Source: Sulfurovum sp. (lineage in GTDB: Bacteria; Campylobacterota; Campylobacteria; Campylobacterales; Sulfurovaceae). Taken from it: DNA of 64,000 nucleotides. Shown in pieces: positions 28,462-37,961 of this stretch. How positions within the stretch are numbered: the first letter of the stretch is position 1; every line of letters starts with the position of its first letter. Below the pieces are notes generated by a model. That model did not search any database. It saw only the letters and a list, made by a program, of their open reading frames with translations, and was not told the origin of the DNA. The stretch covers positions 1 to 64,000 of the forward strand of contig JALWLD010000079.1 of assembly GCA_027081115.1 (NCBI GenBank), in the 5' to 3' direction. The translations under genes were made by a program, and so were the position numbers.

Positions 28462-29075
28462 CAGTAGCACTTCCGAAAGGAAGAATTGCAGAGCAGACTT
28501 TAGAGATATTTGCTGAAATCTTTGGTGGAGAGTTTAAATTTGAGGGTAGAGAACTCATTTTGGATATGGGAGATTTTCGTTTTCTAAATGTACGTAATCA
28601 AGATGTACCAACCTATGTAGAACACGGTGCAGCTGATATTGGTGTGGTTGGTCTTGATGTAATTACAGAAAAAGAGCTCGACATCATCCAATTGCTCGAT
28701 ATGCAGCTTGGAAAATGTAAAGTGGCTATTGGTATTAAAAATGAAGATGAACTGGACTGGTCCCGTCCCAACATTAAAGTAGCTACAAAAATGGTAAACA
28801 TCACGAAGAACTATTTTGCGCAAAAAGCAGTGGGTGTAGAAGTGGTAAAGCTATATGGTTCTATTGAGCTGGCACCTTTGGTCGGTTTGGCAGATGCTAT
28901 TGTAGATATTGTAGAGACAGGCAATACTATGCGTGAGAATGGCCTGAAAGTTGCAGAAGATATTATGGATTCTTCTGCGCACCTCATTGCCAATAAAAAC
29001 AGTTTCTATGCTAAAAAAGGTGAGATCCTTTCTCTTTATGAAAAAATAAAAACTGTTGTAGAAAGAAATGCCTAA
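28455..29075 (+). CDS. hisG: ATP phosphoribosyltransferase, short form
   Basis: VALPKGRIAEQTL, GLADAIVDIVETGNTMRENGL; 206 aa, no C-terminal regulatory domain. Confidence 0.95.
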   Translation: MLTVALPKGRIAEQTLEIFAEIFGGEFKFEGRELILDMGDFRFLNVRNQDVPTYVEHGAADIGVVGLDVITEKELDIIQLLDMQLGKCKVAIGIKNEDELDWSRPNIKVATKMVNITKNYFAQKAVGVEVVKLYGSIELAPLVGLADAIVDIVETGNTMRENGLKVAEDIMDSSAHLIANKNSFYAKKGEILSLYEKIKTVVERNA

Positions 29076-29772
29076 CAGTTCTGATTCACTTGACCTCTAC
29101 GCGAAAGTAGAAGATCTTTTAGGTGTAAAAGAGGCTGCTCCAGGTCTCTATGCCCATTACCTTCTTTTTTTAAATACTCAAGACTTTGATAGCTTACTGG
29201 ATGTGGGTTGTGGCTCTGGAGATTTCTTACGCCAGATACAGGGCGCATTGGGGATTTCTCAAGTCAAAGGGATCGACCTCAGTCCATTTATGGTGGCACA
29301 AACCCTTGAACAAGGCTATGATGCGGAGTGCATAGACTTATGCGATTTAGACGGTACGTATGACGTGATAACAGCAGTCTTTGATATGGTCAACTATCTG
29401 AACAAAGAGCAGTTGGCTTCTTTTCTCTCCTGCGTGAAAGATCACTTAAATGAAGGTGGTGTTTTTTTGTGCGATATCAACACCCTATTTGGTTTTGAAA
29501 ATGTAGCAGTGGGCTCTTTCATTGTAGATGACGAAGATCGGTTTTTAGCAGTTGACAGTGATTTTGAAAATGGAGAATATATTTCAGAATTTACTCTGTT
29601 TGAAAAAGGGGAACACTGCTTTAAAAAGTCACAAGAGACGATCCGACAGTATTATCATACAGTTGATGAAATTGTGAAGTTGAGTGGTTTTTCTTTATTG
29701 CAACATGACCAAGTCCATCTCTATGAGCTGGAAGAATCAGATAAGAGGTTTATGGTACTACAGAAAATATAA
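29068..29772 (+). CDS. Class I SAM-dependent methyltransferase
   Basis: LLDVGCGSGDFLRQI SAM-binding motif. Confidence 0.88.
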   Translation: MPNSSDSLDLYAKVEDLLGVKEAAPGLYAHYLLFLNTQDFDSLLDVGCGSGDFLRQIQGALGISQVKGIDLSPFMVAQTLEQGYDAECIDLCDLDGTYDVITAVFDMVNYLNKEQLASFLSCVKDHLNEGGVFLCDINTLFGFENVAVGSFIVDDEDRFLAVDSDFENGEYISEFTLFEKGEHCFKKSQETIRQYYHTVDEIVKLSGFSLLQHDQVHLYELEESDKRFMVLQKI

Positions 29773-29794
29773 AGAAATGTACTTTCTAGTAGAT

Positions 29795-30259
29795 TTAATT
29801 TTTTCCAGGCTCTAAACTTTTAATAAGTTCATACTTCGAGTAGTCACCACTTTTTTTTGCTTCTTTATATGCAGCATTTAATGACTTTCTCCATTCAACT
29901 CTGGCTTTACGATAACGATTTCGTTCTTGTATCTGCTGTTTATGTTGCTCTAAACGAAGCAAACGCTTCGACACTATCTCTTGGTTCTTTTGGAACTTAA
30001 TGTTTCCTTGATCTTTTTTAGTGTCGACTAAAACAGTTTTTTTGGGTACATTATTGCCATTTACGACAAGAGGTTCTTTTTCTTTTAGAAGAGAAGATCC
30101 CCCTTGTGGACCCTTTCCCTTTTCTCTATTTACGGTTGCTTCTCGATTTTCAATAATATTCTCTTTTGACTGCATAGTGTATGCAGTCCAGCCCATCAGA
30201 ATTATAAGAAAAGCTCCGCCTGTCAAAAGTTCTTTTTTCATTTTAGAGTATTTATACAA
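29795..30259 (-). CDS. Hypothetical membrane-anchored protein
   Basis: 154 aa, N-terminal TM; immediately follows the lipoprotein gene on the same strand. Confidence 0.5.
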   Translation of the reverse strand: MYKYSKMKKELLTGGAFLIILMGWTAYTMQSKENIIENREATVNREKGKGPQGGSSLLKEKEPLVVNGNNVPKKTVLVDTKKDQGNIKFQKNQEIVSKRLLRLEQHKQQIQERNRYRKARVEWRKSLNAAYKEAKKSGDYSKYELIKSLEPGKN

Positions 30260-31762
30260 TTAAGAACGATAGTCTGAGTTGATCCCATCCATACCATCAC
30301 AGTTCTGGTCTATACCATCACCTACAGTATCACTTTCATTTGGATTTATTGACGCATTTGCATCATCACAATCTACTGACCATCCAGAAGTCCAGAACCC
30401 ATCACCGTCACGGTCCTCACCTATTTTGACAAGAGCCGGTACATACCATCCAATATCTGAGCCGTTACTTCTAATTTCAACATGATATGTTTTTCCTGTA
30501 TCTGTATTATTTGAGAGTATTTGATATATTCTCCCATTTCCATTACTCATTTCTGTTCCGTTTTCATCATATGCATACCAGTCATAATCGGTAATTGCAC
30601 CACTATTTCCCCCGTCATCTGAATCCTCTATAAAGAAAGCGGACGAGTAGGCAGGAAGGCTTATACTGTAAAAATCTGTATCGCTTGTATCATGTAGAGT
30701 CCTCATCTGACTGTATATATCTTTACGATGTTGGATTTCTTCATATGCACCCAAAGTTTCAGGTGTCGGTTTGGCACTTGCTATATCATTATCCATTTCA
30801 AAAAGATCTACCGTTCCATCTGCAATCGCATCGACTCCGGAACAATCCTGATCGATACCATCACCTCCTATTTCAGTAGCATACGGATAGATCGTATCAT
30901 TATTATCGTTACAGTCGTAAGTTGGCGTATAATTATCAGCATCACTATCCATATATTCTCGAATACCCAACTGATAGCTCGTAGTCTCGACTACACTGTA
31001 TGAACGTACTTTCAGATAGTAGGTACCTGTATATGCTGCAGTATATATGATATGGCTGTCATAATCTATATAGTCGTCATCAGACTCTATGTGATTACCA
31101 GCACTTTGATCAGTATTATCGTACAGATACAGATAGGTGTCTCCAACTTCATTCAGGTTGATAGCAAAAAATTCATATTTTTTGCCCATCTCAAGCTCAA
31201 CTTTCACCCAGTCGTAATCACCCTGAGGATATATACTGTGTGGCTGGAGAGTAGCACCGACTTCAATGGTCCCTGCCGTTGATACATTGTTGTCTCCCGT
31301 AGAACCTTCGTAGCTATCTTTTACCTTTGGACTACTTGGTTTATATGTTGCAATGACGGTGATTGCATCTGGAGCGCTGTTATCTGTCCCATCATTCACA
31401 ATAAGTTGTAAAGTATAATTACCCTCAACATCAGTTTTAAAGGTAGGATTTACCACATTGGCATCAGACAATACAGCCATGCTTCCTTGAGGAGATATGA
31501 GAGTCCAACTATAGCTTAGCGTATTAGCATCTACATCAGAGCTTGCAGAACCATCCAGTGTTACTTCTGACCATAATGAAACATTTTGATCATCTCCTGC
31601 ATTGGCTACAGGAGGAGTGTTCCCTTCTGCTACTGGTGCTGCTACGGGTGTTCCACTAAGTCCTCTTTCAGAAGGAATTCCTTCTGAACCGCATCCTGAG
31701 AAAGCTAAGATTGCTGCTGTTGAAAGTAGCAGGGTTGTTATTTTTCTATTTATAAGTTTCAT
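30260..31762 (-). CDS. Lipoprotein with PKD-like and MopE-type metal-binding motifs
   Basis: Lipobox AFSGC; two units DSDADNYTPTYDCNDNNDTIYPYATEIGGDGIDQDCSGVD and DRDGDGFWTSGWSVDCDDANASINPNESDTVGDGIDQNCDGMD. Confidence 0.8.
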   Translation of the reverse strand: MKLINRKITTLLLSTAAILAFSGCGSEGIPSERGLSGTPVAAPVAEGNTPPVANAGDDQNVSLWSEVTLDGSASSDVDANTLSYSWTLISPQGSMAVLSDANVVNPTFKTDVEGNYTLQLIVNDGTDNSAPDAITVIATYKPSSPKVKDSYEGSTGDNNVSTAGTIEVGATLQPHSIYPQGDYDWVKVELEMGKKYEFFAINLNEVGDTYLYLYDNTDQSAGNHIESDDDYIDYDSHIIYTAAYTGTYYLKVRSYSVVETTSYQLGIREYMDSDADNYTPTYDCNDNNDTIYPYATEIGGDGIDQDCSGVDAIADGTVDLFEMDNDIASAKPTPETLGAYEEIQHRKDIYSQMRTLHDTSDTDFYSISLPAYSSAFFIEDSDDGGNSGAITDYDWYAYDENGTEMSNGNGRIYQILSNNTDTGKTYHVEIRSNGSDIGWYVPALVKIGEDRDGDGFWTSGWSVDCDDANASINPNESDTVGDGIDQNCDGMDGINSDYRS

Positions 31763-31771
31763 TATTTATCC

Positions 31772-32377
31772 TTAAAATTTATAAGAGACACCAAGTGTCC
31801 ATGTATCTGAGTCTACATCATCTAGTTGTGCTGTGTAGTCAAAACCTGTATCATTATACAAAGAGACATAATCTGCAAATATCAAAATATTTTCTGTAAC
31901 CGTGTATTGTGCTCCAAGTCCCCATTGGAATCCACTCTCATAGGCATCACCACCTGAAAGATCAGTAAGCATTACACCTCCGTAACCAAGAAGTGCATAA
32001 ACAGAAAAGTCTCCAATCGGGTACATAGGTTTCACATAGATACCCCAACTTGAGAAGTCACCATTGTAGTTATCTGCCAAACCTGTCAGATCTCCTGCAT
32101 TATAATCTGTACTGAACCCGAAAGTATAACGACCTTCAAGCGCTATATATTCGTTGTACTGATACCCTGCCTGAAGCATCATTGTATTTGCAGAGATCTC
32201 TTCAGAAGTAAAATCATCATTTACCGTTGCATTTCCAAAACCAAGACCTATGTAAAATACTGAGTTGTCAATTACAGGTATTACAACCGGTTCCTCTATA
32301 GGTGCAACATCTCCCCCCGCTATTAAACAACTACTGAGTGCCAGTACGGACACCAATGATAAAATGCTCTTTTTCAT
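31772..32377 (-). CDS. Outer-membrane beta-barrel protein
   Basis: Signal peptide, beta-barrel pattern, terminal WTLGVSYKF. Confidence 0.75.
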   Translation of the reverse strand: MKKSILSLVSVLALSSCLIAGGDVAPIEEPVVIPVIDNSVFYIGLGFGNATVNDDFTSEEISANTMMLQAGYQYNEYIALEGRYTFGFSTDYNAGDLTGLADNYNGDFSSWGIYVKPMYPIGDFSVYALLGYGGVMLTDLSGGDAYESGFQWGLGAQYTVTENILIFADYVSLYNDTGFDYTAQLDDVDSDTWTLGVSYKF

Positions 32378-32429
32378 TTAATCTTCCTCCCCTTATGTAT
32401 ATCTTGAAATTTACTGATAAATAATGATT

Positions 32430-32512
32430 TGCTGAGTAGCCTGGCGATCTGCGAGAGACCCATAGCTTTCCGTACTATCTTCGCAGACAGGTTGGCTTTG
32501 TGCAGAATGTTT
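32430..32512 (-). ncRNA. GEMM-I class cyclic-dinucleotide (c-di-GMP-I) riboswitch
   Basis: Minus strand CACAAAGCCAACCTGTCTGCGAAGATAGTACGGAAAGCTATGGGTCTCTCGCAGATCGCCAGGCTACTCAGC: CTGTCT-GCGA-AGATAG hairpin with GNRA loop, ACGGAAAGC joining segment, GGTCT/AGATC stem, GCCAGGCT receptor-like strand; ~54 nt upstream of the OMP start codon. Confidence 0.8.
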
Positions 32513-32594
32513 AACTTTATTATACAGATATTTATATTCGCTAATTATAGTAACTGTATGCTTATAATTAAATTATATAATAAAAAGTCGATAC

Positions 32595-32820
32595 AGTGTT
32601 TTCCTTGGTGATATCAATACACTCCACGGTTTTGAAAATGGAGAATATATTTCAGAATTTACTCTGCTTTAAAAAGTTACAAGAGAAGATCCGACAGTAT
32701 TGTTATATTGTTAAAGATATTGTTACATTCAGTGGTTTAGAGTTGTTAGTCGATGATGAGGTCAATCTCTACGGATTGGAAAGTGCTGATAAAAAGTTTT
32801 TGGTGCTAAAAAAAGTAGGG
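32595..32820 (+). pseudogene. Decayed partial copy of the methyltransferase at 29068-29772
   Basis: VFLGDINTLHGFENGEYISEFTLL* then (frameshift) FKKLQEKIRQYCYIVKDIVTFSGLELLVDDEVNLYGLESADKKFLVLKK matches the intact gene C-terminus with two internal deletions. Confidence 0.88.
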
Positions 32821-32838
32821 GTATGGGGAGATAGTATT

Positions 32839-32879
32839 TTGGTAGGCAAGGTGCCTACCAAGATAGTCTAGGACTATCT
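32839..32879. terminator. Two adjacent perfect hairpins downstream of rpsR
   Basis: TTGGTAGGCA-AGG-TGCCTACCAA followed by AGATAGTC-TAG-GACTATCT; no clear T-tract. Confidence 0.45.
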
Positions 32880-33137
32880 CAAGTTCTCAAATGGGGATTC
32901 AACAACATTCTTTCTATCTACGATATACGGAATAAGTGCTGTTTGTCTTGCTCTTTTGATTGCGACAGTTACAAGCTCCTGGTGACGCTTACAGTTACCT
33001 GTCAATCTTCTTGGCATGATTTTAAATCTTTCGCTCAAACTGAATTTGAGTGAATTTAAATCTTTATAGTCGATAAAATCAACTTTCTGCTCACAATATT
33101 TACAAAATCTCTTTTTAAATTTTCTTCTTTCTGCCAT
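32874..33137 (-). CDS. rpsR: 30S ribosomal protein bS18
   Basis: [26 protein letters not shown]...[28 protein letters not shown]. Confidence 0.96.
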
Positions 33138-34220: not shown

Positions 34221-35414
34221 TTAATGAAAAGGAAGAAGGAGGGAAAATTCTGCACCATTTTCAATGTTTTGTGCAGTCAAACTACCCTGCATATTTTCAA
34301 TCATATTTTTGGCTATATTCAGTCCCAACCCTGACCCCTCTTTTTTACTTGTGACATAAAGATCGAACAGTGTATTGAGCATATCGGCAGGAATACCTCC
34401 TGCATTGTCTTTGATCCGTACACAGGCATGTTCATTATCTGTGGAGATAGCAATAGTGATCTGCATATTTTCATGAGGGTTTTCTTCAAATGCATCTTTT
34501 GCATTTTTCAAGAGGGAAAGAAGTATTTGTTTGAATTCATTGGGGTAACCATATGCCAAGACATTCCTGTCCCCTTCTACTATAATATCAATATACTTAT
34601 ATTGGTATTCGGATTCAATTAGTCTCAGTACACTCTGTATATGCTCAAAGAGGTTAAATTGCACCCTTTCTTTCATAGGATTGAAGAAATTCTGAAAATC
34701 CACCACGGTTTGATTTAAATGTTCGACTTGCATTACTACTTTATCGAGTGTTTCATAAAACATATTTGTATCAATAGGACCTTTTTTCAGTTTTATTTTT
34801 AGTACACTCACGATCAGGTTGATCGAATTGAGCGGCTGTTTCCACTGATGGGTGACCATTCCTATCATTTCGCCAATTTGGGCATGGCGTGACTGTATCT
34901 CCATTATTTTCTGATTCTCACGACTTTTCTTTATGGCGCTGTCTACCATTACCTGCATCTCTTCGTTAAAGCGTTTTAGTTGCATATTTTTTTCAGAGAT
35001 CTCTTTTAAAAGTAGGGATTTCTCATTACGTTCCTGAATCAGTTTTTGCTGTGTATTTGCCTGTTGGGTGATATTTTCAAACAGTATGATCAATGTTTCG
35101 AAGTAACCTTCCTTTTCATTGCACGTTCGTCCGGGATGGACATGAATATGCACATATTGATCGGTATTTTTAACGATATAGGGAAGTGTGAGTACTTCTT
35201 TCTCTTTTTTAAATATTTTTTCTATTTCAGCTTCCATACCGTAGAGCTCAGGAACGACTTGAATAAGATTCATATTATCATAATTCATACTACTGGCCTC
35301 ACATAAACGAAAGACCATATCTGAATATTCAATGATCTGTAAGTTTTTATCTATGACCATGTATTCATAGAGATGATTTGCATTGATCGCATTTAAAATT
35401 TCTTGTATATGCAT
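34221..35414 (-). CDS. PAS-type sensor histidine kinase
   Basis: MVTHQWKQPLNSI H-box; DNAGGIP, GSGLGLNIAKNMIE ATPase motifs. Confidence 0.88.
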   Translation of the reverse strand: MHIQEILNAINANHLYEYMVIDKNLQIIEYSDMVFRLCEASSMNYDNMNLIQVVPELYGMEAEIEKIFKKEKEVLTLPYIVKNTDQYVHIHVHPGRTCNEKEGYFETLIILFENITQQANTQQKLIQERNEKSLLLKEISEKNMQLKRFNEEMQVMVDSAIKKSRENQKIMEIQSRHAQIGEMIGMVTHQWKQPLNSINLIVSVLKIKLKKGPIDTNMFYETLDKVVMQVEHLNQTVVDFQNFFNPMKERVQFNLFEHIQSVLRLIESEYQYKYIDIIVEGDRNVLAYGYPNEFKQILLSLLKNAKDAFEENPHENMQITIAISTDNEHACVRIKDNAGGIPADMLNTLFDLYVTSKKEGSGLGLNIAKNMIENMQGSLTAQNIENGAEFSLLLPFH

Positions 35415-35425
35415 ACCATTCCTTT

Positions 35426-35929
35426 TTAAGTAAGCATAGAGTGTGCTAAAGCATAGAATACCTCTTCAACACCGCTACCACTTTTTGCTGAACCCAGATA
35501 AATATCGTTTACCTTTTGTCCATATTGTTGTTTAATCTCTTCAAGAATATTTTTTGCAGTAATATTATCAAGCATGTCACATTTGTTCAGTACAAGCATC
35601 ACAGGTGATGAAGGTATGATACCTTCAATAGTTTTTAGATAGGTTGCAATATGTTCAATGGTCTCTTCTCTTGTGAGATCTGAAACAATTATACACCCGT
35701 GTGCCCCTGTCAAATAAGTAGTATTGACTGCTTTTAGCTCTGTACCACCTTCTATATCCCAGATCAGTCCCTGAACAGTTTCATTTTCCAGTGCAATATT
35801 TTTTCTTGATATCTTTACACCGATTGTGCTCAAGTAGGTATCACTGAATTGGTTGTCTACATAGCGACGGATAAAACTTGTTTTCCCTGTCGCAAAATCT
35901 CCGATCAAAATTATTTTTTTTGATATCAT
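35426..35929 (-). CDS. Rab/Ras-like small GTPase
   Basis: LIGDFATGKTSFIRRY P-loop, STIGV switch I, WDIEGG at G3, NKCD G4, GSAKSG G5. Confidence 0.88.
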   Translation of the reverse strand: MISKKIILIGDFATGKTSFIRRYVDNQFSDTYLSTIGVKISRKNIALENETVQGLIWDIEGGTELKAVNTTYLTGAHGCIIVSDLTREETIEHIATYLKTIEGIIPSSPVMLVLNKCDMLDNITAKNILEEIKQQYGQKVNDIYLGSAKSGSGVEEVFYALAHSMLT

Positions 35930-36014
35930 TATTTATTATATCCTTTTTGGTACTGTAGATTTTCTTGTACAAATATTTTTGAGAGGATTGTATTCAGTAT
36001 CAATTGTATCTGTT

Positions 36015-37961
36015 TCATAGTTCTTTCTTGCTGCCGTTTCTATTGATTATACCATTTTTGTGTTGGATATTAAACACTTTTTGCATAGTTTCATACACCA
36101 TATCCCGATCAAGTTCAAACCGTATGATAATCCTTCTTGATGCGTTATGATCCTCTTGGTCATTCACCAGTATAATCTCTTTGCTGGCTTTTCCTACGGA
36201 TTCAAGCAGGTTTTCTATATGTGCTTTTTGAACGAACGGTTGTTTTAAAAGGTATGTTTTGACTACATCCGCTCTCTTCTGGGTAAGCATCATATTGTTT
36301 GCAACAGTACCACTGCTGTCACTGTGACCTTCGATAATGATCTTTTTCAGATAGGCTCTATATGGCAGTAATACTGACAGATAGTGTTCAAAGGTTTTTT
36401 TCACAGTATTGATCTCTTTGGGATTATACTCAACCTGCTGTACTGAAAAAAGGTGTAGTTTGGCAAAGTCCAATGTCTGGTTTTGCCTGTTGTAAAAAGG
36501 ATTGTTTTTCATGGCGGTAAAGAGTTTTGATGTAATTTCGTCTTTAAGATGCAAAATATGGTGAATCTCTTTTTCTTTTGCTTCAAGCAAGATGATCTTC
36601 TTCTGTAGCTCTGCTACAGATTCCAGTACCGGTTTTGTAGTCTGTAAAAATTGTTTTTGCAGCAATGTTAGATTCTGTTCGTAGCTCTGGATATTTTTTT
36701 GTTGTCTTTTGAACAAATACTCCTGAGCTTTGGTACTGAGTATTAGATGGTTAATAACGGACTTTCCTGTTTTTTCTCCAATTAGATCAATCATTTCGGG
36801 GACATGCTTCAGTGTATCAATATATCCGTTAAGTTCAATTATCTTACCATGATCATGTAGTGTGATTTCTTGTGCCATTTTTTGTTTTATCTGGGTTTCA
36901 AGTATATGGATCTTGTACCATTCATTTGCAATATAACCTCCATATCCCAGTATCAGTAGGCCTATTGCAAGAAAAATCAGTTTTGCAGGATTATGTTTTT
37001 GAACAGATGTATCTGATCTGTCAAAATTTTTCTGTGAAAGAAGATGATTTTGCATTTTTTCAGAAAGCTCTGCAATTTCAGGAGCACTGTCATCCCCATT
37101 AAAATTTTGGAAATATAAAGCATATTGCTTGACGATCGATGCAAAAAATTGGTTGATCTCTGAGCGAAGTTCATAGTCAGGCTCACTGTCAAGAAAAGCA
37201 ATGACATAGACTGAACCAGCACTTTCAATATAGAGTGTCGCATTTCCATAACTGAGTATCTGTATCTCTTCTTTGTTCTCCTGATATTTATTGATCCAGT
37301 CATTGATGAAGTCCTTAATAGCACTTGCCATGGAAGCAACCATTTGAGGATCATCAATTTCACGTTTTTCTATACTTGCCGAAGAGATAAGCAGTCCTGT
37401 ATCTTTATGGATCACGAACAGTGCTGAGATCAATGCATCGCCGCTCTCTTCCATAAGCAGTTCTGTTTCACTGACACCGGTAAATTTAGCTTTCAGTTTG
37501 CGTTTGAAGCGTTCTGTGGAAAGACCATTTTCAATTTTCTGGTTAATCTGTTCCATCAGCTCTTTGATGGACTGTGTGACATATTTTGAAATCATCCCGC
37601 CCATAATAGGGTAAAGTGCATCGATCATCACGTCTTGATTGTTTGCGATCTCTTTGGAGATAGCCGGAGCAATCACCTTTTGTAGAGAACCACTGAGTTC
37701 AGGCAAGTGTATTTGGGATGCATGTTCTATGATCTGGGCAAGATGCTCTGCCAGTATTTCTACCGTCTGGCCATTTTTCTTTTCAAGGTTTTGAAGCAGG
37801 ATCGTATCTAAAAGAGGGGTGATCCTTCTTATAATATCCTCCTGGTCTTCAAAACGTAGATCAAGTTTTTCTAATGCTGATGAGAGTTTTTTTAGCTGTT
37901 CAAGCTCAGGCTCAAGAAGAAGTCTTTTAAGCTCTTCAAGCTGTGAATTACTTTTCTTCAG
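36015..37961 (-). CDS. OmpA C-terminal-domain protein with N-terminal cytoplasmic domain, probable CTG start
   Basis: C-terminal OmpA-like IIIEGHSDSSGTVANNMMLTQKRADVVKTYL; TM LIFLAIGLLILGYGGY; reading frame open to CTG at 37961, preceded by in-frame TAA and by AAGG 8 nt upstream; ORF track starts at TTG 37706. Confidence 0.78.
   Translation of the reverse strand: MKKSNSQLEELKRLLLEPELEQLKKLSSALEKLDLRFEDQEDIIRRITPLLDTILLQNLEKKNGQTVEILAEHLAQIIEHASQIHLPELSGSLQKVIAPAISKEIANNQDVMIDALYPIMGGMISKYVTQSIKELMEQINQKIENGLSTERFKRKLKAKFTGVSETELLMEESGDALISALFVIHKDTGLLISSASIEKREIDDPQMVASMASAIKDFINDWINKYQENKEEIQILSYGNATLYIESAGSVYVIAFLDSEPDYELRSEINQFFASIVKQYALYFQNFNGDDSAPEIAELSEKMQNHLLSQKNFDRSDTSVQKHNPAKLIFLAIGLLILGYGGYIANEWYKIHILETQIKQKMAQEITLHDHGKIIELNGYIDTLKHVPEMIDLIGEKTGKSVINHLILSTKAQEYLFKRQQKNIQSYEQNLTLLQKQFLQTTKPVLESVAELQKKIILLEAKEKEIHHILHLKDEITSKLFTAMKNNPFYNRQNQTLDFAKLHLFSVQQVEYNPKEINTVKKTFEHYLSVLLPYRAYLKKIIIEGHSDSSGTVANNMMLTQKRADVVKTYLLKQPFVQKAHIENLLESVGKASKEIILVNDQEDHNASRRIIIRFELDRDMVYETMQKVFNIQHKNGIINRNGSKKEL

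Follow-up and report, generated by a model that had tools for sequence, protein, structure and literature searches.

The described RNAs closest to the one considered here are the Vc2 and Vc1 riboswitches of Vibrio cholerae (RF01051), which share its fold, its GNRA loop and receptor, and its G20/A47/C92 pocket. Vc1 sits upstream of a surface-protein gene, as does the aptamer described below, and it positively regulates that gene, the surface-attachment gene gbpA (PMC4744006). The GEMM-Ib riboswitches of Geobacter, which respond to cGAMP, have the same fold and occur in many copies per genome ahead of surface genes, some of them arranged in tandem; 17 GEMM-I copies are found in Geobacter sulfurreducens, and the characteristic GGDEF residue of the cGAMP-making Hypr enzymes is S347 (PMC6456294). 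The c-di-GMP-I-GGC riboswitches (RF03167) belong to the same clan, and three other copies from the host genome of the present RNA pass the RF03167 cut-off. GEMM-Ib cGAMP riboswitches are recognised by variation in the pocket, such as A at position 20, and S347 of the Hypr enzymes takes the place of Asp in the GHxxGD motif.

The aptamer and the operon that it precedes

The window, a 64,000-nucleotide stretch of DNA from an uncultured, sulfur-oxidising Sulfurovum sp. (Campylobacterota), was searched in full with Infernal at the curated Rfam thresholds. The only RNA found was a match to RF01051 (c-di-GMP-I/GEMM-I) on the minus strand at 32506-32432, with 43.5 bits and an E-value of 3.4e-5, compared to a gathering score of 35 bits. 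The first-pass annotation had assigned this RNA to GEMM-I and had proposed a search against the Rfam GEMM model as the check, and the significant covariance-model match bears out the assignment. The landmarks that it had read on the minus strand are all present, namely the CTGTCT-GCGA-AGATAG hairpin, the ACGGAAAGC joining region, GGTCT/AGATC and GCCAGGCT, and its spacing of about 54 nt is correct, with the aptamer ending at 32432, 54 nt from the ATG of the outer-membrane protein (OMP) gene at 32377. Rfam matches to SCARNA7 and to the OppA thermometer fell far under the cut-off and were taken as chance. The features of the locus are as follows:

32432-32506, minus strand: c-di-GMP-I (GEMM-I) riboswitch aptamer, scored with RF01051 and with a lineage model; its parts are a 2-bp P2 base (C21-G46/C22-G45), a GCGA-capped hairpin, P3 with its receptor, and the C92 strand
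32430-32506, minus strand: short P1 closing stem of 3 bp, CUG/CAG, carrying a C14/U93 mismatch beside the pocket (leader alignment)
32378-32431, minus strand: expression platform, a 54-nt AU-rich spacer with the Shine-Dalgarno sequence AAGGGGAGGAAG (from the sequence and terminator scans)
31772-32377, minus strand: OmpA-type outer-membrane beta-barrel protein, 201 aa (Pfam OMP_b-brl 3e-18, OmpA_membrane 9e-6)
30260-31762, minus strand: lipoprotein, 500 aa, with lipobox LSGC, PKD, PPC and two MopE metal-binding motifs (Pfam; lipobox position)
29795-30259, minus strand: 154-aa protein with an N-terminal membrane anchor (in G033 and G140 a homolog comes after the MopE gene)
32596-32817, plus strand: second, decayed copy of the methyltransferase 3' end, upstream of the riboswitch (blastn/tblastn; empty site in relatives)

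With a model made from family relatives the aptamer scores 73.1 bits (E 4.5e-17), a value that is partly by construction because the 37 rows of that model include the window copy. The GNRA tetraloop on P2 is GCGA, P3 with its receptor aligns to the consensus, G20, A47 and C92 are present, and the RNA lies in a 5' leader on the sense strand. Single-sequence thermodynamic folding of the window aptamer gave no signal (z = +0.38), as one would expect where tertiary contacts hold the aptamer together. Judged from its sequence, the RNA is a genuine, orthologously conserved c-di-GMP-I riboswitch aptamer of the known class, with a canonical pocket.

The aptamer precedes orthologs of the OMP gene in eight other Sulfurovum genomes, and in two of these (G033 and G140) the whole unit of riboswitch, OMP, MopE/PPC lipoprotein and small anchored protein is kept. 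The co-directional gene order that had been read at this locus is confirmed, and the unit recurs in other Sulfurovum species. Ten or more OMP homologs have no riboswitch; therefore, the OMP gene does not require it. All close relatives of the OMP come from Sulfurovum or other Campylobacterota records, save one labelled Caldiserica, which is probably a mislabelled bin. The start ATG of the 154-aa protein is probably at 30241, and the MopE match is best read as a putative metal-binding motif rather than as a demonstration of copper binding.

In 18 aligned Sulfurovum loci, including 30260-32377 of the window, a lipoprotein gene lies 9-24 nt behind a barrel gene. Across these loci the barrel has a mean pairwise identity of 54.5%, against 36.6% for the N-terminus of the lipoprotein and 26.9% for its body; the barrel with its variable partner is perhaps a surface-display pair. 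A riboswitch-free genome of the genus (G003) encodes several proteins that match the MopE lipoprotein in its PPC part (C1:43992-49686; 1427905-1428507). Elsewhere in the window, the minus strand at 34221-37706 has a gene for a small Ras/Roc-like GTPase (35426-35929) that is flanked by one for a histidine kinase and one for an OmpA-C-terminal protein.

The riboswitch and its operon lie between a methyltransferase gene (29068-29772) and rpsR (32874-33137), and within 29068-32871 they are bracketed by the intact gene and the decayed copy of its 3' end. A 37-nt stretch of the decayed methyltransferase copy is identical to the intact gene by blastn/tblastn, and in five relatives the methyltransferase gene directly adjoins rpsR-ssb. 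No matches to the methyltransferase, hisG, rpsR or ssb were found near the operon within the stretches examined in G033 or G140. Taken together, the decayed copy, the empty site and the different neighbours make it most likely that the unit arrived as one piece, aptamer included. A doubtful extension, offered tentatively, is that a surface-display cassette with the riboswitch as its own control element moves about and inserts at different Sulfurovum chromosomal sites. Such a cassette would pair a conserved small barrel with a lipoprotein whose N-terminus is partly shared and whose body varies freely, and would carry its own c-di-GMP sensor. If so, newly gained surface proteins would be wired at once to the decision between sessile and motile life.

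Expression platform and direction of control

This three-gene surface operon is likely controlled by the RNA in its 5' leader, acting as a class I riboswitch for c-di-GMP. At high c-di-GMP, the ligand would sit between G20 and C92 while A47 stacks between the guanines of the ligand, and binding would lock P1 and the docked P2 and P3 helices. The locked aptamer would then change how readily ribosomes reach the start site of the OMP gene, and the outcome would be display of the barrel protein and of the lipoprotein with its metal-binding motifs in the sessile state.

A scan of the window leader found no terminator-like hairpin, and by a simple scan intrinsic terminators are absent from 126 of 131 family leaders and present in five. 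In the family leaders the start codon lies at a median distance of 74 nt, counted from the point where the aptamer model ends, about 8 nt beyond P1. Given the lack of a terminator, control is probably exerted at translation initiation, or else it could be Rho-dependent. A pairing of loop and Shine-Dalgarno sequence (UCUC with GAGG) was spotted by eye and rejected, as it is not kept in orthologs.

By analogy with Vc1 and gbpA only, an ON switch is somewhat more likely than an OFF switch. The converse, in which bound c-di-GMP would mask the ribosome site of the OMP gene, concerns the direction and not the identity of the RNA, and it is the less probable of the two while still a serious contender. 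When the bound fold was forced on leaders of 36-140 nt, Shine-Dalgarno exposure fell slightly, with means of -0.06 (Wilcoxon p 0.008) and -0.07 (p 0.02), and swapped leaders gave values near 0, which favors OFF. The effect is small, however; exposure of the Shine-Dalgarno sequence and start codon is unchanged in the window leader, and in leaders no longer than 35 nt the sign is opposite (mean +0.10, p 0.01), part of which was reproduced by the leader swap. Given the sign that changes with leader length, the null result for the window leader and the small swap-controlled effects, the constrained-fold test as a whole speaks for neither direction.

Conservation across the family and the state of the window copy

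In the host genome, 2.45 Mb in 133 contigs, eight RF01051 matches pass the cut-off, which sets a minimum of eight aptamers. Matches occur in most genomes of the genus (72 of 78, with up to 21 in one genome), in 50 of 101 genomes of the family sample, and in 25 of 299 genomes and nine of 58 genera of the phylum sample, all of which are lower bounds given the strict filters. The 5 to 20 copies in many Sulfurovum species are comparable with the number in Geobacter sulfurreducens. By a crude signal/lipobox test, the gene after the aptamer codes for an exported protein in 86 of 123 family copies, and by eye in more. Pfam examples downstream of other copies include Big_9/cadherin/PKD giants (large Ig-type), DUF4382 lipoproteins, an OEP channel, and PilJ-type and NlpC/P60-LysM proteins. 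In some Sulfurovaceae, two c-di-GMP-I aptamers occur together in a leader; they are in tandem in three loci (L133, L125, L152) and divergent, back to back, in L103/L018 and L111.

A literature search that was short on subscription journals returned no paper linking c-di-GMP riboswitches with Sulfurovum, Sulfurimonas or Epsilonproteobacteria. The riboswitch type is well known; its heavy use in this bacterial branch seems little described. The predicted regulon would tie c-di-GMP, via RNA, to surface-protein display in a genus abundant in vents and sediments. It also provides 133 natural variants for testing, including an inverted 21-46 pair beside the ligand.

Among 37 family copies, 90.5% of helix cells are paired and 17 of 22 pairs are altered on both sides, which exceeds all 500 shuffles and all slid controls. 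Over 133 distinct copies, the ligand contacts are nearly invariant (G20 in 133, A47 in 133 and C92 in 132), and all three are kept in the window copy.

The strongest rival to a working switch, itself improbable, is that the aptamer is real by descent but is being lost in the window copy, which would have stopped switching. The window copy has the lowest score of the eight in its genome, its P1 is only about 3 bp long and mismatched, and the constrained-fold test was neutral for its leader. It alone among the 133 copies has C25/U42 in place of A25/G42, at positions listed as highly conserved (PMC3764141); A25/G42 are commonly conserved internal-loop residues that the Rfam model does not require, so that keeping them is not a strict criterion of membership. 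Low score and C25/U42 together suggest that the affinity of the window copy may be reduced. Against decay, the window copy keeps the three ligand contacts, the two pairs at the base of P2, and intact P2 and P3 helices, and the P1 form UCUG...CUCAG, with its C14/U93 mismatch and flanks, is common to the window copy and the closest OMP orthologs. Elsewhere in the family, P2 internal-loop residues A24 and A43 are jointly changed in three aptamers (C24 with U43 or C43 in L055, L057 and L170), two of which sit upstream of OMP homologs.

The ligand and comparison with known systems

For a functional riboswitch at this locus, the expected ligand is c-di-GMP. The host genome encodes about 15 GGDEF domains (17 matches, two of which are short fragments) and 11 EAL domains. 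All 12 GGDEF domains with intact motifs have the canonical Asp, and none has the Hypr signature of Ser for Asp; three further GGDEFs are degenerate. The first-pass annotation had allowed for cGAMP as the ligand of a GEMM variant, and this now looks very unlikely: the fold is identical and many Geobacter GEMM-I RNAs bind cGAMP (PMC6456294), but G20 is present in every one of the 133 copies and the enzymes point to c-di-GMP. The window RNA therefore differs from the Geobacter GEMM-Ib riboswitches in the pocket position by which they are recognised, and its host differs in the intact GGDEFs.

Least probable of all is a recognised variant class with an altered pocket, c-di-GMP-I-GGC or -UAU, given that the raw RF03167 score of 47.2 bits, obtained in a search at permissive thresholds and slightly above the RF01051 score, falls below the RF03167 gathering score of 59, and that the window has A47 where the GGC consensus has G and G20 where the UAU consensus has U; both RF03167 and RF03168 were rejected as identities on these grounds.

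Compared to the RF01051 consensus, in which base pair 21-46 is G-C, the Sulfurovum family has the inverse, C-G, in 129 of 133 copies. In 20 aptamers from other Campylobacterota families, read from their sequences, the pair is mostly inverted likewise, with G-C in two. Positions 21 and 46 are absent from the list of highly conserved positions (PMC3764141), so the inverted pair is a signature of the lineage and not of a new class. Compared to Vc2 and Vc1 themselves, the window copy is set apart by C25/U42 and by the C14/U93 mismatch at the apex of P1.
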